Below are positions 16,450 to 55,635 of a stretch of DNA of 64,000 nt, one piece after another. The position numbers and the translations under genes were made by a program. How positions within the stretch are numbered: the stretch's first letter is position 1; every line of letters starts with the position of its first letter. The notes beneath the pieces are model-generated. The model was not told where the DNA came from and ran no database searches. It was given only the letters and a program-made list of their open reading frames with translations. The stretch is from Salinarchaeum sp. IM2453. Its GTDB lineage: Archaea > Halobacteriota > Halobacteria > Halobacteriales > Salinarchaeaceae. The DNA is taken from positions 2,173,226 through 2,237,225 of the forward strand of contig NZ_CP081183.1 of NCBI RefSeq assembly GCF_019693215.1. Reading direction: 5' to 3'.

Positions 16450-17052
16450 ATGGGAAAACCATCATTTGGGTCCGTCCAAGCAGAGCCAACACTAGTAGTT
16501 GCTGACATAACTCCTGTTGATGGTTGCCCTGTCCTTGAGATTTCAGGTAATATTATTTCTATTCAACGCGCAACACGACAAGACCATACACTCTGTGAAT
16601 GCATCATTCAAACACAAGATTCGCAACTAAGTGCTAAAAAATACAATATTCCGGAAGACGCTCAATGTTTTTGCCGACAGTTGGATTGTATTGGATGTCC
16701 ACCACACGTTCGTAGTGTATCAGGAGACATAATTCGCATTGAACTATATCTTCCTAACCGCAGATTTCTTCGGAGAATCCTTTCTGAAATTGAAGCTAGT
16801 ACTGATTCAGTTGATATAATAAGCATCACAAATGAACGTTCGGAGAGACCTTCTGACTTGACCCGGGTTAAGCTTGATAGATTAACAACAAAACAGAAAG
16901 AGGCTCTCAAAGTTGCAACTAAGAATGGGTATTTCTCTGATCCGCGATCCGTTAACATGGAAGAACTTGCGTCACAGCTTGGGATTACTGCTTCTGCATT
17001 TGCAAAGCGACTTAGATCTGCCCAACGACAAGTTTTTACACAGCTTTATTAG
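16450..17052 (+). CDS. Bat-type (HTH_10) transcriptional regulator
   Basis: A 200-residue protein. The C-terminal ~55 residues form the bacterio-opsin-activator-type helix-turn-helix: LTTKQKEALKVATKNGYF, then NMEELASQLGITASAFAKRL. The N-terminal ~140 residues are a ligand or sensor part with a Cys cluster (CFCRQLDCIGCPPH) that could bind metal or sense redox state. It precedes the AOR operon by 95 bp in the same direction and is the natural candidate for its regulator (inference). Confidence 0.85.
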   Translation: MGKPSFGSVQAEPTLVVADITPVDGCPVLEISGNIISIQRATRQDHTLCECIIQTQDSQLSAKKYNIPEDAQCFCRQLDCIGCPPHVRSVSGDIIRIELYLPNRRFLRRILSEIEASTDSVDIISITNERSERPSDLTRVKLDRLTTKQKEALKVATKNGYFSDPRSVNMEELASQLGITASAFAKRLRSAQRQVFTQLY

Positions 17053-17147: not shown

Positions 17148-17900
17148 TTGATGACTAATCAACCCGATCAGCAGGCAAGTGATCGTACTGATAACTCTGG
17201 TGAAACTTCGCGTCGAAGGTTTCTTCGCGGGTCTGTTGTGGGTGTTGGAGCCTTCTCAGCGGTAGCAGCCGCTGGGCTTATACGAACGCATGAGGTTGCA
17301 GCTGAAGTGCCTGATTCTGAGGGATACCTCGTGGTTGATTCAGAGATGTGTACAAATTGCAAAACTTGCATGTTAACATGCTCATCTGTCAATGAGGGGG
17401 AAGCGAGCCTCTCAAAGGCACGACTTCAGGTTACTGAAGACCCGCATGGAGTTGGAATGGAGTCAAGCAGAGCGTTTCCACATGATATTGAGGTAAACCA
17501 GTGCCGACAATGCGAAGAGGCACCTTGCGTTGATGTTTGTCCCACAAATGCACTCTATGCTGACGAGGAATCCGGCAATGTTCGACAAATCGAACAAGAG
17601 AAATGTGTTGGTTGTCGGCAGTGCATCGAGGCATGCCCTGTAGTTCCAACTAGAATTACTTGGACTATTGATGATCAAGTGGCTCAAAAGTGTGACTTGT
17701 GTACCAAATCTCCCAACTGGGATCAAGAGGGAGGTGTAGATGGAGATCAAGCATGTGTTGAAGTGTGTCCTATGGGATGTATCGAATATACAGAAGAGAA
17801 GCCAACTCAGGTCGGTGATGAGGGATACGATGTTAATCTGAAACGAGAGAATTGGCAAGAAAACTTTGCCGTCGGAGTTGACGGGGAGGAACCACCATGA
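17148..17900 (+). CDS. Tat-exported 4x[4Fe-4S] ferredoxin-like electron-transfer subunit
   Basis: A 250-residue protein with a Tat signal (SRRRFLRGSVVGVGAFSAV, residues ~21-40). It has four cysteine clusters: CTNCKTCMLTC, CRQCEEAPCVDVCP, CVGCRQCIEACP and CDLCTKS paired with CVEVCPMGC. This is the DmsB/NrfC-type four-cluster layout, which wires a catalytic subunit to a membrane anchor. Its stop overlaps the AOR start by 4 bp. Role: electron transfer from AOR to the cytochrome b at 20313, probably on the outer face. Start at 17148 or the next codon, 17151. Confidence 0.9.
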   Translation: MMTNQPDQQASDRTDNSGETSRRRFLRGSVVGVGAFSAVAAAGLIRTHEVAAEVPDSEGYLVVDSEMCTNCKTCMLTCSSVNEGEASLSKARLQVTEDPHGVGMESSRAFPHDIEVNQCRQCEEAPCVDVCPTNALYADEESGNVRQIEQEKCVGCRQCIEACPVVPTRITWTIDDQVAQKCDLCTKSPNWDQEGGVDGDQACVEVCPMGCIEYTEEKPTQVGDEGYDVNLKRENWQENFAVGVDGEEPP

Positions 17901-19927
17901 TTGGGCACGCAGGCAACATCCTTTACGTGAATCTAACTGACCGTACTGTGGATAAAATACCGACAGAAGCGTACAGCGAGTGGGTTGGAGGCCAAGGATT
18001 AGCATCAGCACTCATCTTTGACCTGATAGATGACTGGTCGACAGGCCCCTATGACCCGGAAAACGTGTATACAATTATGTCTTCCCCACTTGGAGGACTC
18101 CCAGTTCCACAAGGCCCTGGCGGCCGTACAAATCATAATTTCATTGGAGCCCAGCCATATCCCACTGAGTGGTACACTCGAAGTGGCATGGGTGGCCGAC
18201 TGGGAGGGATGCTAAAGATGGCTGGCTACGATGGTATCGCCATACAGGGAAGCGCCAATGATCCTGTCTGGATCAATATTATTGATAATGAGGTGACCAT
18301 TGAGAATGCAGACGACCTGTGGGGTCTTGACACATACGAGACACAAGCACAGATTTGGTCCCGATTACATGAGTCGTCCTCAAACTGGGAGCGACACAAT
18401 AATAGCTCACGATCTTCACAGCGATCTGCGATCGCCACCATCGGACCTGGAGGCGAGAATTTAAGTCGGAACGCTGCCATCATCCATGAATCTGGCAGCG
18501 GTGCTGGCCAGGGAGGTGGCGGTGCAGTGTGGGGATCAAAGAATCTCAAGGCAATCAGTGTGCTCGGAACGGGCGCTGTTGAGATCGCTAACCCAGGAGA
18601 ATTAATTGAATCTAGAAAGTGGATGATAGAAAATTATGGATACGATGTTGAATCTCCAGAGACATTAGGTGATCGACAGATTCCCCGCGAGGCTCGTCAA
18701 CTTGATCGACACCCAGCCTCGCATGCAATTGGAGTCGCTGGAATTCAGTCTGGGCTTGGCTGTATGGGCTGTCACGCAAGTTGTCGATCTCGGACAGAAA
18801 CAGGAAAAGGAAGAGGAAGCCAATGTGTCGACGTGGGGGCCGGAGTTATAGATAAAGAAGGCACTGAGGAACTAAACCGCGACTCGGATAATGTGCAAAA
18901 ATACGGGATTAATGCATGGACGGCATCTGATCTGGGATATCTATATTCCTTATATCAGCTGGGATTCTTTGGTGAGGACGGTGAAATGAATCCTGATCTT
19001 CCATGGAACGAGTATGGTGATGCCTCATTTGCAGAAGAGGTGTACGAAAAAATCGCTAACCGGGAAGGTATTGGTGACGACCTTGCTGAAGGAATGGTTA
19101 GAGCTGCCAAAGAGTGGGGAAGACTTGAGCAAGACCTTGCGACTGGTGAGTTAGCATATGAGAACTGGGGATATTCATCACACTATGACAACCGGGCATT
19201 TACATCAACATGGGGATATCCAAGCATACTGACATCAAGAGACGTGAACCAGCACCTGTTCGTTTATGACTTGTGGTGGATGCCATATAACTGGGAAATT
19301 GAAGGAGAATCTCCACCGGTATCGGCCTCAGAATCGGCTGAGCTTATTCAAAATAAAACACTTCCCCATGAGGTAATGCCAGACTACAGCACATCAGCAA
19401 TATACGGACAAAACGGAATTGAGACCACTGACTGGATTTTACAGTATTCACGGTTCTGGACCAACTCGGTCCAATTCTGCTCACAGGCACTTCCTGATTT
19501 GATTAATGGACATGCTGAGAACTATGATGGGGCTACTCCAGAAATTGAGCCCCGTTTTTTCAATGCTGTAACTGATGAGGATTTGACTTTCGAAGACGGA
19601 ATGGAAATTGGAGATCGTATTCTCCATTTAGATCGGGCAATCTGGACGCTGCAAGGCCGACATCGTGATCAAGAAGTTTTCCCCGACTATATTTATGAAG
19701 TCGAGAACCGACAAGGGCCATTTCCAGTTCAGACAGACGACGGGTGGGAGTACGAGTATATTGAACGTTCTTTAGACCGGTCTCAGGTAGAAGAATGGAA
19801 AACAGAATTCTATGAGTACAAAGGATGGGATGTCGACACTGGACGACCAACAAGAGAGTCACTGGAGGAACATGATCTGGGCTATGTGGCTGATAAACTA
19901 GAGGAGAAAGACGTCCTTCCAAGGTGA
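17897..19927 (+). CDS. Aldehyde ferredoxin oxidoreductase family protein (W/Mo-bis-pterin)
   Basis: A 676-residue AOR-family enzyme. The N-terminal domain starts IGHAGNILYVNLTDRTVDKI and has GPGGRTNHNFIGAQPYP and RSGMGGRLGGMLK for pterin contacts. The [4Fe-4S] ligands are CMGCHASC (near residue 292) with a distal Cys in SVQFCSQALPD. It lacks its own export signal. The Tat-bearing Fe-S partner and cytochrome b suggest a membrane respiratory complex rather than a ferredoxin-linked cytosolic enzyme; E. coli YdhV is the nearest known analogy by gene set. Aldehyde or another carbonyl substrate is likely but not shown. Confidence 0.9.
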   Translation: MIGHAGNILYVNLTDRTVDKIPTEAYSEWVGGQGLASALIFDLIDDWSTGPYDPENVYTIMSSPLGGLPVPQGPGGRTNHNFIGAQPYPTEWYTRSGMGGRLGGMLKMAGYDGIAIQGSANDPVWINIIDNEVTIENADDLWGLDTYETQAQIWSRLHESSSNWERHNNSSRSSQRSAIATIGPGGENLSRNAAIIHESGSGAGQGGGGAVWGSKNLKAISVLGTGAVEIANPGELIESRKWMIENYGYDVESPETLGDRQIPREARQLDRHPASHAIGVAGIQSGLGCMGCHASCRSRTETGKGRGSQCVDVGAGVIDKEGTEELNRDSDNVQKYGINAWTASDLGYLYSLYQLGFFGEDGEMNPDLPWNEYGDASFAEEVYEKIANREGIGDDLAEGMVRAAKEWGRLEQDLATGELAYENWGYSSHYDNRAFTSTWGYPSILTSRDVNQHLFVYDLWWMPYNWEIEGESPPVSASESAELIQNKTLPHEVMPDYSTSAIYGQNGIETTDWILQYSRFWTNSVQFCSQALPDLINGHAENYDGATPEIEPRFFNAVTDEDLTFEDGMEIGDRILHLDRAIWTLQGRHRDQEVFPDYIYEVENRQGPFPVQTDDGWEYEYIERSLDRSQVEEWKTEFYEYKGWDVDTGRPTRESLEEHDLGYVADKLEEKDVLPR

Positions 19928-19933
19928 TCAACA

Positions 19934-20323
19934 ATGCAACTACAACAACCATCTCCAGAACTTGCCAGACAGATTCTTTCAGACGTACCGTATGAAGATC
20001 GACTAACAGCATATAAGATGCGACATGGACCTGGACCACAGCGTCGGAGGCTTTACTCGCTTGAAGAAACTTCTGAATTTCTGTCGATCGATGATGGTGA
20101 TACTCTACAGCAACTTGGTGGAAAAGGCTCTGTCACAGATATTGATTTTGTGGAACTGCAAGACTGGGTTGCTGAAGTTATTGGTGACCAAGAACTCGCT
20201 GCAGCGATTCATAACGAAATTGTGGATGCAGACTGCTATCGAGAAAAGCTACAGCGTATCCAGCCCCTCCTCAAGTCACGAGTCGAACAATCTAAGAAAG
20301 TGGTGAATACTCATGGCGACTGA
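19934..20323 (+). CDS. Small hypothetical subunit or chaperone of the AOR complex
   Basis: A 129-residue acidic, cysteine-free protein (RQILSDVPYEDRLTAYKMRH, then DIDFVELQDWVAEVIGDQEL), mostly helical by eye, with no membrane segment or signal. It begins 6 bp after the AOR stop and its end overlaps the cytochrome b start by 11 bp, so it is in the operon. Comparable operons encode maturation or structural proteins here. I do not recognise the family. Confidence 0.7.
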   Translation: MQLQQPSPELARQILSDVPYEDRLTAYKMRHGPGPQRRRLYSLEETSEFLSIDDGDTLQQLGGKGSVTDIDFVELQDWVAEVIGDQELAAAIHNEIVDADCYREKLQRIQPLLKSRVEQSKKVVNTHGD

Positions 20324-21269
20324 AGAATCTACCTCACCCGATAGCTCGAAAAGTGCTCCTGAGCAGTTACTCGGTTCTGTAGAAAACTCTATCTCTAAAG
20401 GAACTAAGCATCTTATTGTTGCTGGCTTAATCCTTGGTGCAGTCGTTACTGGCATTTATATCGCGTGGACGAATAGCCAACTGTATACATTTGATACTGG
20501 ATTCGCACTAGCCAATCAATATGATATGCTCTTTGACACAGCAACATGGGCATTCCCCGCGGCTGCTTCCGTTGGGCTGATTGGCGGTGGAATCGCGTCT
20601 CTCGCTTCTCGCCCTCACTCGGTTACAGCAACTAAAATTGAACGGCACAAACCGTTTGGGACATTCCTCGAGCACTGGGTCATGGCAGCTGGACTTGTCC
20701 TTTTTGTTATTTCCTACTTTGCACTTGGATTTCTGATGTTCCCACGGCTTGTGACATCGACTGAATCAGTTGGATTTGCGATTAATCTCCATTTCATCGG
20801 GGGTGTTTTTATTGCGTTTGCCGCCTCCTACCATGTTGCTAGTGTCATTATGGGATCTAGACAATTTCTCTTCCCGACTATCTCTGATTTGAAGATGATT
20901 CCTGCAGATCTGAAATCAACATTGCATAGCAGTGATCAACCTCCAGCAACAGGACAGTACCGACCGATGCAGAAAGCTGTCTACTCAATCTGGGCTGTGA
21001 CGTTAGCTATAGTATCCATTGCTGCTGGGATTCGTATTTTCCCATATATCATCGGTTCTGGACCGATATATGGAACAGCCGTCACAGCGCAAGGAATTCT
21101 CACCTTAATAATAACTGTATTACTGATTGGTCATATCGCTTACTACACGTTAATCCCGTCGAACCGACCACTACTCATGTCTATGCTTACTGGCTGGTTG
21201 CCCCGTGAGTACGCAGAAAAGTACCATGACAACTGGACTAAGCAGCTGGATCAAAAACAGGATCAGTAG
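20313..21269 (+). CDS. Cytochrome b-type membrane anchor of the AOR complex
   Basis: A 318-residue membrane protein with about five to six hydrophobic segments (near 35-55, 75-95, 125-145, 160-185, 225-245, 255-280). Histidines lie in or beside helices (FLEHWVMAAG, NLHFIGG, SYHVASV, LLIGHIAYY) as expected for a di-heme cytochrome b. The end GWLPREYAEKYHDNW resembles formate dehydrogenase gamma subunits (FdnI type). Role: passing electrons from the Fe-S subunit to menaquinone. The start lies inside the preceding gene, implying translational coupling. Confidence 0.85.
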   Translation: MATEESTSPDSSKSAPEQLLGSVENSISKGTKHLIVAGLILGAVVTGIYIAWTNSQLYTFDTGFALANQYDMLFDTATWAFPAAASVGLIGGGIASLASRPHSVTATKIERHKPFGTFLEHWVMAAGLVLFVISYFALGFLMFPRLVTSTESVGFAINLHFIGGVFIAFAASYHVASVIMGSRQFLFPTISDLKMIPADLKSTLHSSDQPPATGQYRPMQKAVYSIWAVTLAIVSIAAGIRIFPYIIGSGPIYGTAVTAQGILTLIITVLLIGHIAYYTLIPSNRPLLMSMLTGWLPREYAEKYHDNWTKQLDQKQDQ

Positions 21270-21983
21270 ACCACAAAATAAAGAGTTGCCATACAATGTA
21301 GTAGCATTCACTTTACTTTTTATTTTAAATAAAACGAAAATAGGCTTAACTACGTGATCTTAGCATTTTATACAGTAATTCTACAGGGATACTGTGTTGC
21401 ATAGAGCACTATGACAGACTCACAATAGCATTGTTATCTCGCGAAGTCTCGGTAAACACGGAATGGGCATAACTGCTCTTATATACGTACAGCAGTGGAA
21501 ATTGAATTATCTACTCCTGATCGAGCTATATACGGAGTATGTTGGAGAAGAGGCGTATCAAATTTCCGGACATACAAGAGTATGACTGAATTGAAATTCC
21601 CAATTACGGACGAAAGAAATACTCTAAAAGCACAGTGGGCGTTATGTTATGCTGGTGAACATCCAATTGAACCATTGGTTATGGATACCAACTTATGATA
21701 ACGCTAACTCTCAAATCGGATTCAGAGACAGTGGGTTGGCTCCAATAAGAATTAACACACACTTCCGGATCTAGCTGGGAGAAGGAGTCAAACTAAGACA
21801 CTAGGCTTCTGTTGAACGTGACGCTTGTACTAGATTTGGCATTTCCTGTGAGGATTAGACTGCATACAGCATAGCTCATCAGCTCTGCCGACCTTTTCGT
21901 AGCAATTACTGTTGTGCTTGGCACTGTGCTGAACGGAGAGTGTATGTCAACGTGAACACGGCTGTTCTGACGGGTGGAACATA
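21270..21983. other. 700-bp gap, no recognised gene
   Basis: AT-rich at 21290-21360. A 67-codon frame at 21495-21698 (plus) is open but shows no known domain and could be a remnant. No palindrome family members. Confidence 0.4.
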
Positions 21984-22220
21984 TTATTTTCCTTTGTCGG
22001 ATAGAATAGCAACTCTTGAATAAAGATACCACAGTTGGATTACTAATCCGAAGAACGGAATCATGATCGTAATCTCTGGAACCCGTTCAACAGGGTTTTT
22101 TCCTGCTGTTGTATTGTCACCAGCAAAACGCCGAGTGTCTATCGTAATCAATATCCAGAGCAATAGTTGAAGAAGTAAAAGTGATATTAGAACTGCTGGT
22201 ATCAATCCATTCATTACCAT
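21984..22220 (-). CDS. Small two-helix membrane protein
   Basis: A 78-residue protein with an N-terminal helix (LIPAVLISLLLLQLLLWILI), a polar loop with Arg/Asp, and a second helix (IMIPFFGLVIQLWYLYS). A hairpin membrane topology with both ends on the same side is likely. Unrecognised family and no obvious partner; composition supports a real gene. Confidence 0.55.
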   Translation of the reverse strand: MVMNGLIPAVLISLLLLQLLLWILITIDTRRFAGDNTTAGKNPVERVPEITIMIPFFGLVIQLWYLYSRVAILSDKGK

Positions 22221-22811
22221 ATATTAATGACGCCGGAGTATAATCAGTGTGTGGGCATTCACCGGATTCCCGCTTGCATTTACACACACAGTTCCTGTTA
22301 ACACTAAAGAAAGTAACCAAAGTCAATTCTCCTCAAATATAACTGCTATTCTACTGAGATAGTCGAGCGTATGCGCCATCCTCAACGTTTGTCCGCTGGA
22401 TCTCTTTAGGTCATCGGAGCACTGCCGTTCATCAGCTAACATTGGTAGCATTTTCTCTTACTTTGATGTACAGCGTACTCGCGCTGGACTCCAGGATAAC
22501 ACCCCGTGTGCGAAATGAAATTGAAGCGGCCAGTGATATATATCGATATTAAGTTGAACCCATGTGATAATCCTGTCAATATCTAATGTATAGGCGGTTG
22601 AGGCAACTGCTCAGGGGCTTGACCCTGGAGAAGTTCACTCATTGGATGTCAGTCATACACTGATCCCCAGCTGGTTAGTACAGTGCTTACGTAATCAGTA
22701 TAATATGTGACCTTCCCGGCGGCTTCAGGTAGTTTTATACTGTCGGAAAATAGAAATTAAGCTATCGGGAGACACTTGTTTCTGATTGCGGATCAGGATC
22801 AGTGAGAAGTT
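22221..22811. other. Gap with a minimal palindrome element
   Basis: No gene recognised. It contains the shortest complete tnpB-type unit in the window (22590-22640). Confidence 0.5.
22590..22640. mobile_element. Minimal palindrome unit with both element ends
   Basis: TGTATAGGCGGTTGAGGC, a left-end signature shared with the tnpB element at 54 kb, is followed directly by the palindrome CTCAGGGGCTTGACCCTGGAG (22610-22630, one mismatched arm pair) and AAGTTCAC, the right-end signature. It is as if everything between the ends of a tnpB element had been removed. Confidence 0.7.
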
Positions 22812-22905
22812 GCAGGCCGGTGTGACCGCACCGACCTGCGACGGCTCCCGTAGGTGCGTACGGAAGCCATGCAGAGAATTACGCTACGAGACTATCAAAG
22901 TCTCG
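22812..22905 (+). promoter_or_regulatory. Three tandem hairpins upstream of the coiled-coil/XPB region
   Basis: Hairpin 1 at 22812-22839 (GCAGGCCGGTG / CACCGACCTGC), hairpin 2 at 22843-22868 (GGCTCCCGTA / TACGGAAGCC) and hairpin 3 at 22887-22905 (CGAGACT / AGTCTCG), with 3- and 18-bp spacers, ending 85 bp before the chosen start of the coiled-coil gene. Candidates are a structured 5' leader RNA, an operator array or a replication-type site. Confidence 0.55.
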
Positions 22906-22989
22906 CACGAACAGGTGTATCGCTAGCACATACCATCACCACCAACCCAGCACAGCAGCCTGCTTTTGCTACTACCAGAGGTGGTTGTG

Positions 22990-32479: not shown

Positions 32480-33718
32480 ATGAAACACACGCTTCGCTTC
32501 CGCGCATACCTGCCCGATGACGTGGCGAGCGAAGCGTGGCGACATATCGACATTCTCCGGCAGATTCGCAACCACGCTGTCCGAGACTACTACAACGCAG
32601 ACTACAACGACAGGCCATCTGACTACGACCAACACAACAAACTCAAAAACTGGACAGACCAGTGGCCCACCTTTGCAGAACCCTCTCAACACGCCGCACA
32701 ACAAGCCATCACCCAAATCCACAGCGATCTGGAAACCTTGAAAGAACGGCGAAAAGAAGGCTACGATGTTGGGCGGTTGAAATGGCAAGGAGCGGGCGAA
32801 TTCCGGTCGGTGTCGTACAATCAACCCCGTCGCTGGAACGTGGATCACAACACGGGCGACGACCGGTTCGTGCGACTCCGACTCGAAAAAATTGGCTGGT
32901 TCAAAATTCGAGCAGACCGCGACGTCCCACCAGCAGAGGACATTGACGAGGTAATCCTGAAACAAGAAACGACTGGCGAATGGTACGTCTCACTCGTCAC
33001 CACTGTCGAAGACACTCCAGAGAAACCGTCACTAAGCGAGATCGACCCCGAAGACTGTGTGGGTGTTGACCTTGGTATCACCAGCTACATCCACACTTCG
33101 GAGAACCTGTCCGTTGATACACTTGACCTGTCCGATGAGTACGACCGTTACGCCCGCGAGCAGCGGAAACTCGCCCGAAAAGAACACGGGTCCGCTAACT
33201 GGGAGAACCAGCGTCGGAAGGTGGCCCGAGCGAAACGAACAATCAAGCGGAAGGTCGAAGATTTCCAGCACAAACTGACGACGTGGCTTGTCACAGAGTA
33301 CGATGTCGTGGCCGTCGAAGACTTGGATGTGAAGTCAATGCTGGAAACCAGCCAGAACGCGAAAAACAAGCAAGATGCTGCATGGTCGCGGTTTCTTGAA
33401 CTACTGGAATACAAGGCTAACCTGCACGGCACGCACGTCGCAAAGGTGGAGCCGGAAGGCACGACAAAAGAGTGCGCTGTGTGTGGTGTTGAGACGGATA
33501 AGCCACTCTGGGTGCGGGAACACTCGTGTCCAGCGTGCGGTCATACGGAAGACCGCGATCTGAACGCGGCGAAGAATATGCTCTACAGAGGACTCAAGCA
33601 GTTAGGGCTGGGACAGTCCGAATCAACGCCTGTGGAGACTGCGCTCCCTACGCTCACGCCTCAACGAGAGGCTGTGAGTGCAAAGCGCGTCGTTGAAGCA
33701 GGAGGCCCCGGGGCTTGA
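32480..33718 (+). CDS. tnpB: TnpB RNA-guided endonuclease, copy 1
   Basis: A 412-residue TnpB. The N-terminal part has the REC/WED-like region (HIDILRQIRNHAVRDYYNAD). The RuvC motifs are DLGITSYIHT (Asp), VAVEDLDVKSM (Glu) and HTEDRDLNAAKNML (Asp), with the zinc finger CAVCG...CPACG between II and III. All catalytic residues are present. In IS200/IS605 elements TnpB is guided by an omega-RNA from the 3' end of its gene and right end and cuts DNA to retain the transposon. The stop lies inside the terminal palindrome. AbrB-like gene 22 bp upstream. Confidence 0.93.
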   Translation: MKHTLRFRAYLPDDVASEAWRHIDILRQIRNHAVRDYYNADYNDRPSDYDQHNKLKNWTDQWPTFAEPSQHAAQQAITQIHSDLETLKERRKEGYDVGRLKWQGAGEFRSVSYNQPRRWNVDHNTGDDRFVRLRLEKIGWFKIRADRDVPPAEDIDEVILKQETTGEWYVSLVTTVEDTPEKPSLSEIDPEDCVGVDLGITSYIHTSENLSVDTLDLSDEYDRYAREQRKLARKEHGSANWENQRRKVARAKRTIKRKVEDFQHKLTTWLVTEYDVVAVEDLDVKSMLETSQNAKNKQDAAWSRFLELLEYKANLHGTHVAKVEPEGTTKECAVCGVETDKPLWVREHSCPACGHTEDRDLNAAKNMLYRGLKQLGLGQSESTPVETALPTLTPQREAVSAKRVVEAGGPGA

Positions 33719-39975: not shown

Positions 39976-41751
39976 TCAGCAGTGTTCAGCAGTGACCCGT
40001 TGGAATTGGGTGTACTGGCGGGTGGTTGGGCCACATCCATCACTACCATCCGCATTCGACTCGGACAGGACGACAGCGGGCGCTATGACAGCCGACCCAC
40101 CACCAACGGTCGCCCTTGCCTGCTCAGGCCTGTAAGCAACAACGCCACGCCCGAACGTGAGTCGCGTACCAGCGGAACGGCGGGCTGGCACGGATTCGCA
40201 ATCCCCCGTATAGGAGGACGTAAACCCGTGATCCAGCCCATCCGTCCCGCTGAAGAACACGCGGGCCACGTTCACCGCCGCGACGTAATCCCGGTCGCCT
40301 TCGAATCCACATCGAGCGTTGGCGCACCGGAAGTGCCCGCCCCACCACACTTTCTCATCGTGATCAGGCGACTTACACGTGTGCCCGGTTGAGCCACACC
40401 GCGGGCACACGCGACTCGTGTCCTGCGGATACACCCGCTCAACATCCACGCCGACGTGCTCACAGCGGTACTCGATCTTCTCGATGATCTCGCGCCGTGC
40501 CCAACTCGACAACTCCCACGACAACCCGCCTTCACCCGACGGCGGGGAGAGCGACCGCAGATCCTCGTGAACGACGGCGTCCACATCGTACACCAAGGCG
40601 AGCGCGACCACTTGATTCGCCACATCATGTGTCAACTGCTCGCGCTTCTGCTGGATCTTGTTGTTCACCCGTTCGTACTCCGCCTGTACCTCTTTGAACT
40701 CGTCTGTGTAATCTCGTCCGTTCCGTCGAAGTTCCGCTAATCTGGCGTTCAACCGTTGCCGTTCTCGGTGGAGTCGGCGCATCTTGTCGCGGTCGGCAAA
40801 CCGAACGAAGTGCGGCCGCGACACCTGTTCGCCGTCCTCGTCAACGACGACAGCCGTCACGTCCTTGCGCATTCCGGCGTCGAGTGCCAACACACGGTCT
40901 GCATCACCGTCGGCGTCGGTAGTGTCTATGTCGACGGGGAACGAGAGTTCGTAGAATTGGTCGCCGTTCTTCCGCCTTGAGGACTGGAATTCGGGGGCTG
41001 ACAGAGAACCGCGCGCGGTAAGCGTGTGGAAGGCGTCGTACCCGTCGAGGTTGTGTTCGTGCCACGACCAGTCTCCACGGCTTTCAGGCGTCACGGTATC
41101 GGGTGTCTTCATCTTCACCGTCAATGACTGGTCGTCTTCGTCGTACTGGTATTTGATGGCTTGGCCGCTGGCGGGGCCATCGTCTGCCGAGTACGGTAAC
41201 ACGCCGTTGCTGTACTCCGGCGGGTCTTGCAATTCGAAATACGACTCGGGGTATCGGCCGTGGCGGTCGTAGTACGAGTTGAGTTGGTCGATGAGAACGT
41301 CGACGTAGCCGCTGGAGAGGTACTCGCCGTCCTCCCACAGCTCTTCTTTGATGCGTCGACGGTGGATTCTGCGGATCTTGTGCGTAGGGAAGAGGTCTTG
41401 AATGGCTTGGAAGGCTTTGCGGCGGTCAGCGTGGCTCCGTAGAGTTTCACCCACCTTCTGGAGGATGCACCGCCGGATGCGTGACGGTAGGTATAGCTCA
41501 AAGTCCTCTGGCGGTGCCTCACCGTGGATTGTTTTGTACAGGGTGTAGTCGTCGAGTTCTTCGAACGGTTGGTGTTCGTCGAAGTACTTCCACGCTTGAT
41601 GGTCGGAGTTGGAGATACCGGTGAGGTGTTCCGGCGTCCAGCGGGTGTAGAGAACGCGGGTGGCGACGTGTTGGACGAACTTGTCCAACCGTTTGTGTTG
41701 GTCGCGGTGGGTGTCCGGTAGTCGAACAGGCAACGAGAGATGGTCACTCAT
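39976..41751 (-). CDS. tnpB: TnpB of IS607 element (long form)
   Basis: A 591-residue TnpB. An N-terminal ~230 residues are larger than in the IS1341-type copies here. RuvC I is VLALDAGMRKDVTAVV (Asp), RuvC II VVHEDLRSL (Glu), and RuvC III GDRDYVAAVNVARVF (Asp), with a CPRCGSTGH...CANARC zinc finger. The last ~85 residues (after ARVFFSGTDG) are Gly/Ala/Ser-rich and probably cover the omega-RNA region. Nuclease activity is likely, guided by RNA from the 3' end. It overlaps tnpA, so the two are co-translated. Confidence 0.9.
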   Translation of the reverse strand: MSDHLSLPVRLPDTHRDQHKRLDKFVQHVATRVLYTRWTPEHLTGISNSDHQAWKYFDEHQPFEELDDYTLYKTIHGEAPPEDFELYLPSRIRRCILQKVGETLRSHADRRKAFQAIQDLFPTHKIRRIHRRRIKEELWEDGEYLSSGYVDVLIDQLNSYYDRHGRYPESYFELQDPPEYSNGVLPYSADDGPASGQAIKYQYDEDDQSLTVKMKTPDTVTPESRGDWSWHEHNLDGYDAFHTLTARGSLSAPEFQSSRRKNGDQFYELSFPVDIDTTDADGDADRVLALDAGMRKDVTAVVVDEDGEQVSRPHFVRFADRDKMRRLHRERQRLNARLAELRRNGRDYTDEFKEVQAEYERVNNKIQQKREQLTHDVANQVVALALVYDVDAVVHEDLRSLSPPSGEGGLSWELSSWARREIIEKIEYRCEHVGVDVERVYPQDTSRVCPRCGSTGHTCKSPDHDEKVWWGGHFRCANARCGFEGDRDYVAAVNVARVFFSGTDGLDHGFTSSYTGDCESVPARRSAGTRLTFGRGVVAYRPEQARATVGGGSAVIAPAVVLSESNADGSDGCGPTTRQYTQFQRVTAEHC

Positions 41752-42370
41752 CAGCAGTCACCTCGGTTTCGACTGCGTTGACGACCTGCTGCTTTTTCGA
41801 TGATCTCATCCCGTAGAGTTTGCCGGAGAAGCTGGCGACGAGCCTGATGAGGTCATCGACAAGTTCTTGCTGTGCGGTTTTGTCCGTCTCGTCTTCGACG
41901 ACAGTGATGGTGACGCCGTGGTGGTCGAAGAGTCGTTCGAGATAGGAGAAGCCAAAGCGGGTGAGTCTGTCCTCGTAGGTGACGAGGACGCGTCCAAAGT
42001 CCGCATCTGGAATCTCGTCGAGAAGGGTGTTGAGACCGGGTCTATCTTCGTTGAGGCCGCTGCCAACATCGGTGTAGGTGGTTTCGACCGTCCATCCGTT
42101 GTCGTGTGCGTATTCTCGGAGGCGGTCGAGTTGACGGTCGAGGTCGCCGTTTTGTTTTTGCCCGTGGCTGGAGACGCGGGCGTAGAGGGCAACTTGGTCG
42201 CGGGGGCGAGCATCACCAGCGAGGCGGAGGAGTTCGCGGTGTGGGATGCGTCGGTCGCCGCCGGGTGTGCGTGTGTGGTCGAGGTCACCGTTTCGGCACC
42301 ATCGTTTGACGGTTTCGGGGTGGACGCCGAGTTCCTCCGCGAACTCGCCGATAGCGTACGACCGTGGCAT
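41744..42370 (-). CDS. tnpA: IS607 serine recombinase TnpA
   Basis: A 208-residue transposase. The N-terminal MerR-like helix-turn-helix (IGEFAEELGVHPETVKRWCR) is followed by a serine-recombinase catalytic domain: VALYARVSSHGQKQNGDLDR with the nucleophilic Ser, FGRVLVTYEDRLTRFGF and a C-terminal helix. This is the standard IS607 order (DNA-binding domain first). It catalyses strand exchange of the element. Complete, with no frameshift. Confidence 0.93.
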   Translation of the reverse strand: MPRSYAIGEFAEELGVHPETVKRWCRNGDLDHTRTPGGDRRIPHRELLRLAGDARPRDQVALYARVSSHGQKQNGDLDRQLDRLREYAHDNGWTVETTYTDVGSGLNEDRPGLNTLLDEIPDADFGRVLVTYEDRLTRFGFSYLERLFDHHGVTITVVEDETDKTAQQELVDDLIRLVASFSGKLYGMRSSKKQQVVNAVETEVTADE

Positions 42371-47363: not shown

Positions 47364-48233
47364 ATGGCGAACAAAGATATTCCAACACTCGTTGAGCCAG
47401 ACTGGTTAGAAAAACGCCTTGATGATCCAGATCTCTGCGTAGTCGATTGTTCCGTAGATCTTACCTATGATATTGAAACCGGAGAAGCAGAATGCAGCTC
47501 TCTCCAGGACAAGTGGGAAGAATCGCACATCCCAGGGAGTATATTTGTTGATCTTATGGTCGACCTCTCTGAGACGAAAGACCCAGATTATGCGTTTCAA
47601 TTGCCTGATCCAGAAGATTTCGCTACGGAGATGGAGTCTGTTGGTATCGGAAGTGATACTCGCGTCGTGGTGTATGATAACGCCAGCAACGAATGGGCTG
47701 CTCGTTTCTGGTGGATGCTACGTGTCTTTGGTCATGATCAAGTTGGTGTACTAAATGGCGGTTGGGAGCGATGGACAAATGAGGATAGGTCCACGTCATC
47801 AAAAGGTCCAACAATTTCAGATGTGACATTCATACCGGAATATAATCCAGACTTCGTTGCGGATAAAAAGGAAGTGCTGTCGTATATCTCAGACGAAAAT
47901 ACTGATGAGGCTCATGTAGTCTGTGCTCTTCCGCCAGACGAGTACAAACTGATTCATATCCCGAACACAAAAAACGTCCCTGCAATAGGTGAGTCTGCTC
48001 TCGTTGATGCCAAAACAAACACGTACCTCTCCGAGAACGAGATTCGAAATCGATTCAATGAGGTCGGTGTTACGGAGTCAGATAGACTGGTGACATACTG
48101 CGGAGGCGGGATTGCCTCGACCAGCGCAGCCCTTGCAGCGTATGCATCCGGAATTGAGAATGTTGCTGTGTATAACGGTGCTCTGGAAGAATGGCGTAGT
48201 GACTCCTCGCTTCCAGTAGCGACAACCGACTAA
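47364..48233 (+). CDS. Thiosulfate/3-mercaptopyruvate sulfurtransferase (tandem rhodanese)
   Basis: A 289-residue enzyme of two rhodanese domains: an inactive N-terminal one (LCVVDCSVDLTYDIETGEA, IPGSIFVDLMVDLSETKDP) and a C-terminal one with active-site loop VTYCGGGIASTSAALAAYA. The catalytic Cys is followed by GGGIAS, typical of archaeal TSSA-type sulfurtransferases. It moves sulfur from thiosulfate or mercaptopyruvate to thiophilic acceptors in the cytoplasm. Single gene. Confidence 0.93.
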   Translation: MANKDIPTLVEPDWLEKRLDDPDLCVVDCSVDLTYDIETGEAECSSLQDKWEESHIPGSIFVDLMVDLSETKDPDYAFQLPDPEDFATEMESVGIGSDTRVVVYDNASNEWAARFWWMLRVFGHDQVGVLNGGWERWTNEDRSTSSKGPTISDVTFIPEYNPDFVADKKEVLSYISDENTDEAHVVCALPPDEYKLIHIPNTKNVPAIGESALVDAKTNTYLSENEIRNRFNEVGVTESDRLVTYCGGGIASTSAALAAYASGIENVAVYNGALEEWRSDSSLPVATTD

Positions 48234-48393
48234 TACAACTGTTGTGTCATAATCACTTCGCTAGTATCAATTGCAGACATGCACCCGATAAAGTAAGGAC
48301 TATACGAGCGAGAACTGACTCATGAACAAATGGCTAAGCACCCGCTTCACAATCACATAGAGTGCAAGCAGATGAACTGTGGGAGGGGTATAG

Positions 48394-48894
48394 ATGGGTA
48401 CCGTTGATCGTTTTTCCAAGATGGCAGAGACGACCGGTGCTGAGGTCCACACGGTATCCAAAGAAGATGCAAAGGACGTGCTTCAAGAATTAATCAAACC
48501 ACCTGCAGTAGGTGTGCAACCACTCACCGATACTGTTTCTCTCCCATCCATTGTTGATCCCCCGACTAAACAGAAGTTCATAGATGAGGCCAAGACCGGA
48601 ATCACAGATGCAATCATTGGGATTGAGACGCTTGGAAGTGTTGTGATCCCCTCTGACGGTCGACAGACAGGACCAGTTAGTCTCTTTCCTGCACGGCAAA
48701 TTGCTATTATTGAAGCATCCGACATTGTACCTGACATCGAGACAGCATTTTCTGTACTACACGACCAGTATGGCCAAGGTATGGACAATACTGTGATCGT
48801 TACTGGCCCCAGCTCTACCGGCGATATGGGCGAGTTGGTAACTGGTGTCCACGGCCCAGGAGAATTACATATTGTGGTGATCTGCGATGAATAG
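48394..48894 (+). CDS. LutC-like LUD-domain protein
   Basis: A 166-residue LUD-domain protein (ITDAIIGIETLGSVVIPSDG, ARQIAIIEASDIVPDIETAF, VTGPSSTGDMGELVTGVHGP). It corresponds to LutC of the LutABC L-lactate utilisation complex. Its stop overlaps the LutB-like gene by 8 bp. Lactate oxidation to pyruvate with electrons to menaquinone is the likely role. Confidence 0.88.
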   Translation: MGTVDRFSKMAETTGAEVHTVSKEDAKDVLQELIKPPAVGVQPLTDTVSLPSIVDPPTKQKFIDEAKTGITDAIIGIETLGSVVIPSDGRQTGPVSLFPARQIAIIEASDIVPDIETAFSVLHDQYGQGMDNTVIVTGPSSTGDMGELVTGVHGPGELHIVVICDE

Positions 48895-51064
48895 TGATTC
48901 ACACGCGGATTATACAGAATATATTCGTAATCTCATCGATAACGAAGGTAAACAGATTGCAGATAATGCTCGATATCTCAATAGAAGACGGTACGCTGCA
49001 TTTGAGGAGCTTGACACAGACGAACACGAACATCTCCGTGCTGAAGCTCGGTCAATCAAAGAAGACGCAATTGATCGGCTCCCTGAGCTGATTGATCAGC
49101 TAACCGAACAGGTTGAAGCAAATGGCGGCTCAGTATACCTTGCTCAAGACGCTGCCGACGCAAACGCCTATATCCAGGAAGTCTGTGATGATGTGGACGC
49201 TGACACAGTCGTCAAGAGCAAATCAATGACAAGTGAAGAGATTCAGATTAATGATGCCCTTTCAGCTGCAGGCATCGATCCAGTTGAGACAGACCTGGGT
49301 GAGCTGGTTATCCAAGTCGCAGACGACGATCCCTCTCATATCGTGGGGCCAAGTCTTCACAAGTCTCGCGGCGATATCGCTGAATTATTCAACGAGTATT
49401 TTGACCCAGAGGAGCCACTTGAAACAGCAGAAGAGTTGACACAATTTGCTCGTGACTATCTTGCTCAACGAATTGAAAAGGCCGAAGTCGGGATGACCGG
49501 GGCAAATTTTCTTGCTGCAGATACAGGGACAATGTGTCTGATCACAAATGAAGGAAATGCACGAAAAGTCGTCGAAGCAACAGACACACATATTGCAGTT
49601 GCAGGGATTGAAAAGATTATTCCTTCATTTGAGGACCTTGCTATCTTCCTTCAATTAGTTTCTCGATCGGGAACGGGACAACCAATTTCATCATATACAT
49701 CTTTGTTCTCACCACCAATCGATACACCACCGGTTGAGCGGGATCAGCGAGAATTCCATCTTGTATTAATCGATAACGGTCGAATGAAAATGCGTGCGGA
49801 TGATCAGCTTCGTGAAACGTTGTACTGTGTACGCTGTTCTGCTTGTCTCAATTCCTGCGCAAACTTCCAGTCTGTTGGCGGTCATGCTTTTGGGGGTGAG
49901 ACATATACCGGCGGTATCGCGACCGGTTGGGAAGCAGGTGTACATGAGCAGGGTTCCGCATCAGAGTTCAATGATTTGTGTACTGGCTGCTCACGGTGTG
50001 TAAACCAGTGTCCAGTAAAGATTGACATTCCGTGGATCAATACCGTAATTCGAAATCGCATTAACCGCGAGGAAGATCCAAACACATTTAATTATCTTGT
50101 TGATGGCCTTTTGCCTGATGACGCACCTACTGGGATCAGTCTGCAGAAGCGCTTTTTCGGGAACTTCGAGACGATAGCAAAGATCGGCGCTACCACAGCT
50201 CCTCTCTCGAACTGGACAGCCAGCACCTCTGTGATTCGTATCCTCATGGAAAAGGTGCTTGGCGTTGATATGCGTCGGGACCTTCCAACATTTGCGACTC
50301 AGACACTTCAGGACTGGTTTCAATCACGTGAATCACCACAGACTGATACAGTCACTCGACAAGTTGTGTTATATCCTGATCTCTATACAAACTACATTAA
50401 TCCCGATCGTGGAAAGTCTGCTGTGCGAGTATTAGAAGCACTCGGAGTAACAGTGAGGATGCCGTCTGTCCGATCTAGTGGCCGTGCACCTCTATCACAG
50501 GGGATGGTGAAAATGGCCTGTAGTCATGCACAGGCTGTGATCGAAACCCTCAATCCGTATATCGAAGCTAATTGCGATATTGTTGTTGTTGAACCAAGCG
50601 ATCTTGCAATGTTCCGGCAGGAATACGGTAGATTAGTCGACAAAGAGAGCTACAAACGGATCTCCAAAAACAGCTATGAGATCATGGAGTATATTCATCA
50701 ATTAAGCGAGAGTGGAACTGACCTTGACGTACTTGGCCAAAGTGACGATACACAGGTCTTTTATCATAGCCACTGCCAGCAGCGCACACTAAATATTGAA
50801 GACTATACTAAGCATATTCTTGAGCAACAAGGCTATCGGCTGAAAACAAGTGATGTTGAATGTTGTGGGATGGCAGGATCGTTCGGATATAAAAATAAAT
50901 ATTATGACCTAAGCGTTGATGTCGGGAGTGATCTACAGAGCCAGTATACAGAGTACGACATACCTGTTATAGCAAGCGGTACTTCTTGCCAGGACCAAAT
51001 CGCCGACCTGTCAGACAACCGTCCGCCACATCCGATTGAACTGATCGATCCTAAATATAATTAA
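48887..51064 (+). CDS. Fused LutB-LutA lactate oxidation protein (LUD + 2x[4Fe-4S] + CCG)
   Basis: A 725-residue protein. Residues ~1-290 are a LUD domain (VVKSKSMTSEEIQINDALSA, EVGMTGANFLAADTGTMCLI). Two 4Fe-4S motifs follow: CVRCSACLNSCANFQSVGG and CTGCSRCVNQCPVKIDIP. The last ~270 residues are a cysteine-rich CCG-type region ending in DVECCGMAGSFGYKN. Together these are LutB and LutA in one chain. It probably oxidises L-lactate with the adjacent LutC. Fusion is the distinctive point. Confidence 0.9.
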   Translation: MNSDSHADYTEYIRNLIDNEGKQIADNARYLNRRRYAAFEELDTDEHEHLRAEARSIKEDAIDRLPELIDQLTEQVEANGGSVYLAQDAADANAYIQEVCDDVDADTVVKSKSMTSEEIQINDALSAAGIDPVETDLGELVIQVADDDPSHIVGPSLHKSRGDIAELFNEYFDPEEPLETAEELTQFARDYLAQRIEKAEVGMTGANFLAADTGTMCLITNEGNARKVVEATDTHIAVAGIEKIIPSFEDLAIFLQLVSRSGTGQPISSYTSLFSPPIDTPPVERDQREFHLVLIDNGRMKMRADDQLRETLYCVRCSACLNSCANFQSVGGHAFGGETYTGGIATGWEAGVHEQGSASEFNDLCTGCSRCVNQCPVKIDIPWINTVIRNRINREEDPNTFNYLVDGLLPDDAPTGISLQKRFFGNFETIAKIGATTAPLSNWTASTSVIRILMEKVLGVDMRRDLPTFATQTLQDWFQSRESPQTDTVTRQVVLYPDLYTNYINPDRGKSAVRVLEALGVTVRMPSVRSSGRAPLSQGMVKMACSHAQAVIETLNPYIEANCDIVVVEPSDLAMFRQEYGRLVDKESYKRISKNSYEIMEYIHQLSESGTDLDVLGQSDDTQVFYHSHCQQRTLNIEDYTKHILEQQGYRLKTSDVECCGMAGSFGYKNKYYDLSVDVGSDLQSQYTEYDIPVIASGTSCQDQIADLSDNRPPHPIELIDPKYN

Positions 51065-54375: not shown

Positions 54376-55635
54376 ATGAAACACACGCTTCGCTTCCGTG
54401 CGTATCTGCCCGATGACGTAGCAAGCGAAGCGTGGCGGCACATCGACATTCTCCGGCAGATTCGCAACCACGCTGTCCGAGACTACTACAACGCAGACTA
54501 CAACGACAGGCCATCTGACTACGACCAACACAGCAAACTCAAAAACTGGACAGACCAATGGCCCACCTTTGCAGAACCCTCTCAACACGCCGCGCAACAA
54601 GCCATTAGTCAGATTCACAGTGACCTAAAGACGCTGCAAGAACGCCGAAACGAAGGCTACGATGTTGGGCGGTTGCGCTGGCAAGGTGCAGGCGAATTTC
54701 GGTCGGTGTCGTACAATCAACCCCGTCGCTGGAACGTGGATCACAACACGGGCGACGACCGGTTCGTGCGACTCAGACTCGAAAAAATTGGCTGGTTCAC
54801 CATCCGAGCAGACCGCGACGTACCACCAGCGGACGAGATTGATGAGATAATCCTGAAAAAAGAAACGACTGGTGGATGGTACGTCTCACTCGTGACGACG
54901 GTGGGTGACACACCCAAGAAACCGGCGGTGAGTGAGATTGACCCCGAAGACTGCGTGGGCGTTGACCTTGGCATTACCAGCTACATCCACACGTCCGAGA
55001 ACTTGTCCGTGGATACGCTCGACCTGTCCGATGAGTACGACCGTTACGCACGCGAGCAGCGGAAACTCGATCGGAAAGAACACGGTTCGGGCAACTGGGA
55101 GAAACAACGCCGGAAAGTCGCCCAAGCGAAACGAGCAATCAAGCGGAAAATGCGCGACTACCAGCACAAACTGACGACGTGGCTTGTCACAGAGTACGAT
55201 GTCGTCGCAGTCGAAGACTTGGATGTGAAGTCAATGCTGGAAACCAGCCAGAACGCCAAAAACAAGCAAGATGCCGCGTGGGCACGGTTTATCGAACTGC
55301 TGGAGTACAAAGCCGAGCTCCACGGCACGCACGTTGAGACGGTCGAACCTCGCGGGACGACCAAAGAGTGTTCGGTCTGTGGGGTCGAGACAGCTAAGCC
55401 AATCTGGGTACGCGAGCATTCGTGTCCAGCGTGCGGCCATACCGAAGACCGCGATCTGAACGCGGCGAAGAATATTCTCTTTCGTGGTTTGAAGCAGTTA
55501 GGGGCGGGACGCTCCGAATCAACGCCTGTGCAGACTGCGCTCCCTACGCTCACCCCTCAACGAGAGGCGGTGGGTGCAAAGCGCGTCGTTGAAGCAGGAA
55601 CTTCCTTCCGCGAGGCCGGAAGCTCCGGGGCTTGA
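54376..55635 (+). CDS. tnpB: TnpB RNA-guided endonuclease, copy 2
   Basis: A 419-residue TnpB very close to copy 1. RuvC motifs DLGITSYIHT, VAVEDLDVKSM and HTEDRDLNAAKNIL and the zinc finger CSVCGVET...CPACG are intact. The DNA is a mosaic: stretches nearly identical to copy 1 alternate with stretches full of synonymous changes (for example around 54600-54660 and 54890-54950). The C-terminus is longer by seven residues (EAGTSFREAGSSGA). The stop again lies in the terminal palindrome. Confidence 0.93.
   Translation: MKHTLRFRAYLPDDVASEAWRHIDILRQIRNHAVRDYYNADYNDRPSDYDQHSKLKNWTDQWPTFAEPSQHAAQQAISQIHSDLKTLQERRNEGYDVGRLRWQGAGEFRSVSYNQPRRWNVDHNTGDDRFVRLRLEKIGWFTIRADRDVPPADEIDEIILKKETTGGWYVSLVTTVGDTPKKPAVSEIDPEDCVGVDLGITSYIHTSENLSVDTLDLSDEYDRYAREQRKLDRKEHGSGNWEKQRRKVAQAKRAIKRKMRDYQHKLTTWLVTEYDVVAVEDLDVKSMLETSQNAKNKQDAAWARFIELLEYKAELHGTHVETVEPRGTTKECSVCGVETAKPIWVREHSCPACGHTEDRDLNAAKNILFRGLKQLGAGRSESTPVQTALPTLTPQREAVGAKRVVEAGTSFREAGSSGA

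Follow-up and report, generated by a model that had tools for sequence, protein, structure and literature searches.

The question raised by this locus is which kind of redox enzyme is encoded by four plus-strand genes, here called S, L, W and C, that lie at 17151-21269 of the window, a 64,000-nucleotide stretch of Salinarchaeum sp. IM2453 (positions 2,173,226-2,237,225 of an archaeal genome of 2.66 Mb in a single contig). The earlier note on this DNA, made from the letters alone, had read them as a membrane-wired aldehyde oxidoreductase (AOR) operon; the wiring stands, as that of an AOR-family complex of the YdhV kind, linked to twin-arginine translocation (Tat) and coupled to a cytochrome b, and the aldehyde oxidoreductase identity does not. 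The operon probably encodes an archaeal Ydh-type ('Class V WOR') respiratory complex, in which an outward-facing L-S-C assembly would be coupled to quinone. Membrane wiring is supported by homology, as judged from the sequences, and we infer the protein ligand of the metal, the export of L, the coupling to quinone, which way electrons flow, and what W and a regulator, R, do.

For the catalytic subunit L (17897-19927, plus strand), domain searches returned AFOR_N (5e-49) and AFOR_C (2e-33), the nearest NCBIfam model was YdhV (PRK09849, 3.5e-68) and not a conventional AOR model, and the AOR/BamB fold was confirmed with an AlphaFold model (E about 1e-28 to 1e-24). A 25-row maximum-likelihood tree placed the eight core archaeal L sequences in one clade (100/100), and grouped them at the next level (98/95) with YdhV, four more L sequences of Methanohalarchaeum and three of another halobacteriote genus. 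YdhV, on a long branch, is the sole bacterial Ydh-type row, and a place of L in the published clade 41 is accordingly tentative. Outside the YdhV-containing clade fall the conventional haloarchaeal AORs, among them three paralogs from the host genome. The BamB and PfFOR rows are partial and were rebuilt from a HMMER alignment, which together with the long YdhV branch makes the precise branching order uncertain; the partial BamB row does not join the Ydh side.

L contains five cysteines in total. C289-x2-C292-x3-C296 (18761-18784, plus strand; aligned with YdhV and conventional AORs) and Cys528 (codon 19478-19480, plus strand) are the predicted ligands of one [4Fe-4S] cluster; these four had been recognised before, and the fifth and last, the invariant Cys310 (codon 18824-18826, plus strand), had been missed. 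Cys310 aligns with YdhV Cys336 in MAFFT alignments, and a profile alignment made separately with HMMER pairs it with BamB Cys322; C310, R448, D449, H453 and C528 are invariant in all 15 Ydh-type archaeal L sequences; conventional haloarchaeal AORs have no Cys at position 310. The Glu313 column is occupied in core L sequences by a gap, D, S, N, G, T or A and in none by Glu, which is found there in four of five conventional haloarchaeal types sampled and in PfFOR, and His453 of L lies near, yet out of register with, His448 of AOR. YdhV Cys336 and BamB Cys322 have been reviewed as protein ligands to the metal in enzymes without the usual second-shell residues, and in aldehyde-oxidising members, by the same account, no protein residue ligates the metal (PMC12096430). 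Cys310 is predicted to be a protein ligand to the Mo or W ion of L, for which a bis-pyranopterin (bis-MPT) cofactor is expected besides the cluster.

A strict aldehyde oxidoreductase would have no protein ligand at the metal and would keep Glu313 and His448; L has Cys310 and lacks Glu313, and so carries both marks of the cysteine-ligated YdhV/BamB subgroup (Cys at YdhV 336/BamB 322, Glu313 lost). Conventional AOR identity was rejected on these two residues and on tree position. CsWOR41 of Cetobacterium, the one other relative that has been studied, oxidised none of 46 aldehydes, with L only partly purified and without its S subunit (PMC13328260). Aldehyde chemistry is disfavoured because Cys310 is present, Glu313 is missing and the CsWOR41 preparation was inactive on those aldehydes; judged by its residues, L is not a conventional aldehyde oxidoreductase, an ordinary aldehyde substrate is unlikely, and the name given to it earlier is not supported. 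A true AOR that is wired to the menaquinone pool and oxidises aldehydes at the membrane would account for the AOR-family fold, the retained cluster Cys and the membrane and Fe-S partners, but is very improbable given the Cys in the YdhV/BamB metal-ligand column, the lost Glu313, the ligand-free metal of aldehyde-oxidising members, the inactivity of CsWOR41 (with the limits given above) and the three conventional AOR paralogs already held by the host. A BamB-like reductase of an activated substrate, for example a coenzyme A (CoA) thioester, would share with L the metal-ligand Cys and the missing second-shell Glu; it can scarcely be credited, since BamB is cytoplasmic and its CoA substrate would not be available extracellularly, Bam partner genes were not seen among the open reading frames (ORFs) inspected around the archaeal loci, and BamB, as a partial sequence, lies off the Ydh side of the tree.

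The electron-transfer subunit S (17151-17900, plus strand) is a ferredoxin-like protein in which four [4Fe-4S] clusters are expected; its 16 cluster Cys are invariant in five archaeal orthologs, and in the PDB it comes closest to the small subunits of complexes of the AOR family (9mqx_E, 6x6u_B, 8c0z_C). It carries the Tat motif RRRFL (R21, R22; RR codons at 17211-17216), the RRxFL form of which is invariant in all core orthologs. In five sister S proteins of Methanohalarchaeum a twin-arginine motif is followed by a lipobox (GVSGC), and because of these Tat and lipobox signals the S family is expected to end up outside the membrane; Class V WORs have been read as periplasmic on the same Tat ground (PMC13328260). 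If instead the signal of S served as an uncleaved anchor only, L would stay on the cytoplasmic face and the complex would link a cytoplasmic substrate to C, an arrangement with which the lack of any signal on L and W and of a clear cleavage site in S agree; it is unlikely, as the invariant RRxFL, the Tat-lipoprotein sisters and the published reading of Class V WORs all speak for export.

The membrane subunit C (20313-21269, plus strand) matches PF01292, cytochrome b561 (8e-11), and comprises a b561/FdnI-like domain, mapped by its His residues, and about two extra N-terminal helices. The fourth helix of the b561 domain (TM4) carries an H-x13-H pair in six archaeal orthologs and in YdhU, and the first His of this pair is replaced by Gln260 (codon 21090-21092, plus strand) in the window copy, which keeps H121, H160, H174 and H274; the pair belongs to the His set expected of a di-haem cytochrome of the b561/FdnI type. 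The description of C as a multi-helix protein with helix-borne His is upheld, with the amendment that one His conserved elsewhere is Gln here. By analogy with FdnI, a His at position 260 would presumably ligate whichever haem lies closer to the outer face, and electron entry may be altered in the window copy because Gln260 sits there.

All four genes were confirmed, with S and L overlapping by 4 nt (17897-17900), L and W separated by 6 nt, and W and C overlapping by 11 nt; ATG at 17151 was preferred as the start of S over TTG at 17148, the mechanical first start. A regulator gene, R (16450-17052, plus strand), lies 98 nt ahead of them and is co-conserved; the earlier inventory was right in its four genes and had left R out. 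Among 392 sampled genomes of the class, an L ortholog was found in only three besides the host (49-52% identity, E <1e-190), W adjoins L in the same three, and the order R-S-L-W-C is kept in each. Two of these relatives were placed in Halodesulfurarchaeum, one matching Halodesulfurarchaeum formicicum HSR6, a sulfur-respiring obligate anaerobe (PMC5437934). A named-genome scan and a phylum-wide search showed the module also in Candidatus Methanohalarchaeum thermophilum and a relative (Methanonatronarchaeia), arranged with a radical-SAM gene as S-L-W-rSAM-C (two loci) or S-L-W-C-rSAM. The S-L-W-C module totals seven loci in six genomes of several families, with R or with the radical-SAM gene in place, and is rare and patchy in its distribution, with its genes tightly linked. 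Chance does not account for the arrangement, because genomes of other families, haloarchaeal and methanogen, show the genes in this order, and the proposed four-gene set is borne out, the order being kept in every ortholog with the cytochrome, where a lack of conservation had been named as grounds for giving up the claim. Mobile or viral origin was rejected, as L had no match in plasmids or IMG/VR and W none in phages.

Two further observations were made at the relatives' loci. The 2.1-Mb genome of Methanohalarchaeum (G409; loci L031, L043, L060-L064) holds seven Ydh-type L genes, five of which are paired with a Tat-lipoprotein S whose N-terminus is zinc-finger-like (CPYC...H..H). The operon of genome G317 ends (L026:13152-14117) with a 321-aa AFOR_N-type protein that has neither the cluster motif nor Cys310, a stripped-down L-like protein.

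The orphan protein W (129 aa; 19934-20323, plus strand) is present at each of the seven loci that have C, and the five Methanohalarchaeum loci that lack C lack W as well. It matched no Pfam family, and its AlphaFold model, though good (pLDDT 84), found no match in a fold search of the PDB (best E 0.64); homology to YdhW was rejected after an hhalign comparison with a single YdhW sequence (probability 0.2%, E 0.3). W is proposed as a maturation factor or extra subunit, and most likely helps to load the cofactor or to assemble the form that is linked to the cytochrome. At six of the six other W-containing loci (L025, L026, L027, L031, L043, L044) a gene with B12-binding and radical-SAM domains is present, in two copies at L044, and this family is readily found by BLAST across these loci. 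In the window no remnant of it was detected by tblastn downstream of C. The region directly 3' of C (21270-22965), where the radical-SAM gene stands in relatives, spans about 1.7 kb without an ORF of 80 aa, the next ORF of at least 80 aa starting only at 22966; no RNA elements were found at gathering thresholds between 13000 and 24500.

Several points weigh against an outward-facing, quinone-coupled complex. L has no export signal of its own; the window C lacks one probable haem-ligand His, at Gln260; the radical-SAM gene was found neither in the window nor in its genome, by a genome search run without a positive control; the AlphaFold model of L falls below pLDDT 50 at residues 249-321, so that the geometry of Cys310 is not checkable from it; and the metal-ligand assignment of YdhV itself rests on a statement in a review (PMC12096430). 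Because Gln260 is combined with a missing radical-SAM gene, the window copy may be divergent or decaying. A stronger form of this, in which the locus is degenerating and the complex, deprived of its radical-SAM partner and of one haem ligand, no longer works in the host, would also agree with the end branch of the window L (0.78), which no other in the core clade exceeds; it is judged quite unlikely, as all five genes are open and tightly packed and the 16 + 5 functional Cys and the Tat motif are kept.

The Ydh-type complex would then work as follows. L would hold its Mo or W in a bis-pyranopterin cofactor with Cys310 as protein ligand and the [4Fe-4S] cluster nearby, and would dock on S, the four clusters of which would form an electron wire. 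S would leave by the Tat route, and folded, cofactor-loaded L probably rides along to the outer face. Electrons would pass between S and the haem or haems of C, and between C and menaquinone, in either direction, while W would serve in loading the cofactor or assembling the cytochrome-linked form and R would switch the operon on under anaerobiosis. R has a Pfam HTH_10 domain (2.5e-18; Bat/DmsR-type) and, in its N-terminal half, a DmsR_N match just over the cut-off (3.8e-6, 27.6 bits against 27), with four invariant Cys in the N-terminal domain (C26, C49, C75, C83); its counterparts at the same position in three other haloarchaeal loci share 27-29% identity. In Halobacterium, DmsR exerts positive control of the dms anaerobic terminal reductase operon (PMC1447603). 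R is probably a redox- or anaerobiosis-responsive activator, and because it is DmsR-like, and DmsR positively controls a reductase operon, a terminal reductase drawing on menaquinol that formate or hydrogen supplies is slightly favoured over a dehydrogenase.

For the host, COX1 (haem-copper oxidase) was not found in the 98.6% complete genome, a control haloarchaeon being positive, and it is missing from four of the five other module genomes, G317 being the one that has it. The host encodes two formate dehydrogenases of the cytoplasmic type, one exported enzyme that resembles formate dehydrogenase, and two PhsA-like and one TtrA-like enzymes (thiosulfate/tetrathionate-type reductases), and this set, together with the lack of COX1, fits a sulfur-respiring anaerobe. 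We tentatively put forward, as a possibility, that Cys-ligated AOR-fold Mo/W enzymes on the outer face of halophilic anaerobic archaea serve as terminal reductases (or dehydrogenases) for a substrate new to the AOR family, and are matured with the new family W and mostly with a B12-dependent radical-SAM enzyme that would modify the enzyme or its cofactor. For the E. coli ydh operon and its relatives in bacteria neither a substrate nor a role is known; the archaeal members occur in physiologically narrow hosts (sulfur-respiring haloarchaea, methyl-reducing halophilic methanogens), which narrows the search for the reaction, and W and the radical-SAM partners offer new handles on the maturation of such enzymes. 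Seven catalytic subunits in one 2-Mb methanogen suggest that reactions of this class may make up a large share of the anaerobic life of brines that has so far gone unrecognised.

Elsewhere in the window, translations were read for several TnpB-like ORFs and a serine-recombinase-type ORF (32480-33718, 39976-41751, 41744-42370, 54376-55635); two of the TnpB-like ORFs are nearly identical, and the region is rich in mobile elements and raised in GC. Translations at 47364-51064 gave a rhodanese-like gene and two LutC/LutB-type (lactate-utilisation) lookalikes, a possible menaquinone-linked dehydrogenase set.

Compared with known systems, the module resembles E. coli ydhYVWXUT in having an Fe-S subunit before the AOR-family L, a small protein third and a b561-type cytochrome later, and its L falls in the clade of YdhV (98/95) with the metal-ligand Cys kept; it differs in that YdhX and YdhT are absent, W is not recognisably YdhW, and the archaeal side has a clear RR motif in S, the additional R and, elsewhere, the radical-SAM gene. 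The S-L pairs of Methanohalarchaeum thermophilum (L060-L064) belong to the same L family and have a Tat-exported four-cluster S, one pair (Mhal_3) lying within the core clade, but their S is a predicted Tat lipoprotein with the extra zinc-finger-like N-terminus, and C, W and the radical-SAM gene are not adjacent. Class II benzoyl-CoA reductase BamB(C) (PDB 4z3w) shares the AOR fold, a W-ligating Cys322 and the lack of Glu313, but is a cytoplasmic multi-subunit complex with neither Tat signal nor cytochrome b. Conventional haloarchaeal AORs (such as Haloferax WOR83, PDB 9q1t, and the three host paralogs) share AFOR_N, AFOR_C and mostly the same cluster motif, and differ in having no Cys at 310, Glu in the Glu313 column in four of five types, and a separate clade. 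The haloarchaeal DMSO/TMAO operon dmsREABCD likewise begins with a DmsR-like regulator and encodes a Tat-exported Mo enzyme system, its catalytic subunit being of the DMSO reductase and not the AOR family. To call the complex an undescribed respiratory complex, as had been done, was an overstatement: its counterpart in bacteria has carried the name Class V WOR since 2026, with clade 41 reported from bacterial taxa only, and has been read as an outward-facing complex of the same kind (PMC13328260). Known since then is the kind of complex itself; new are the archaeal members, W and the radical-SAM link, no account of any of which was found in the literature searched. With Class V WORs the module shares the Tat motif on S (RRRFL, invariant in orthologs) and further subunits beside L and S, here the adjacent and co-conserved W and C, with membrane association judged from the genes; its hosts are haloarchaea and Methanonatronarchaeia in place of bacteria, which extends the range of the class and is not a mechanistic distinction.

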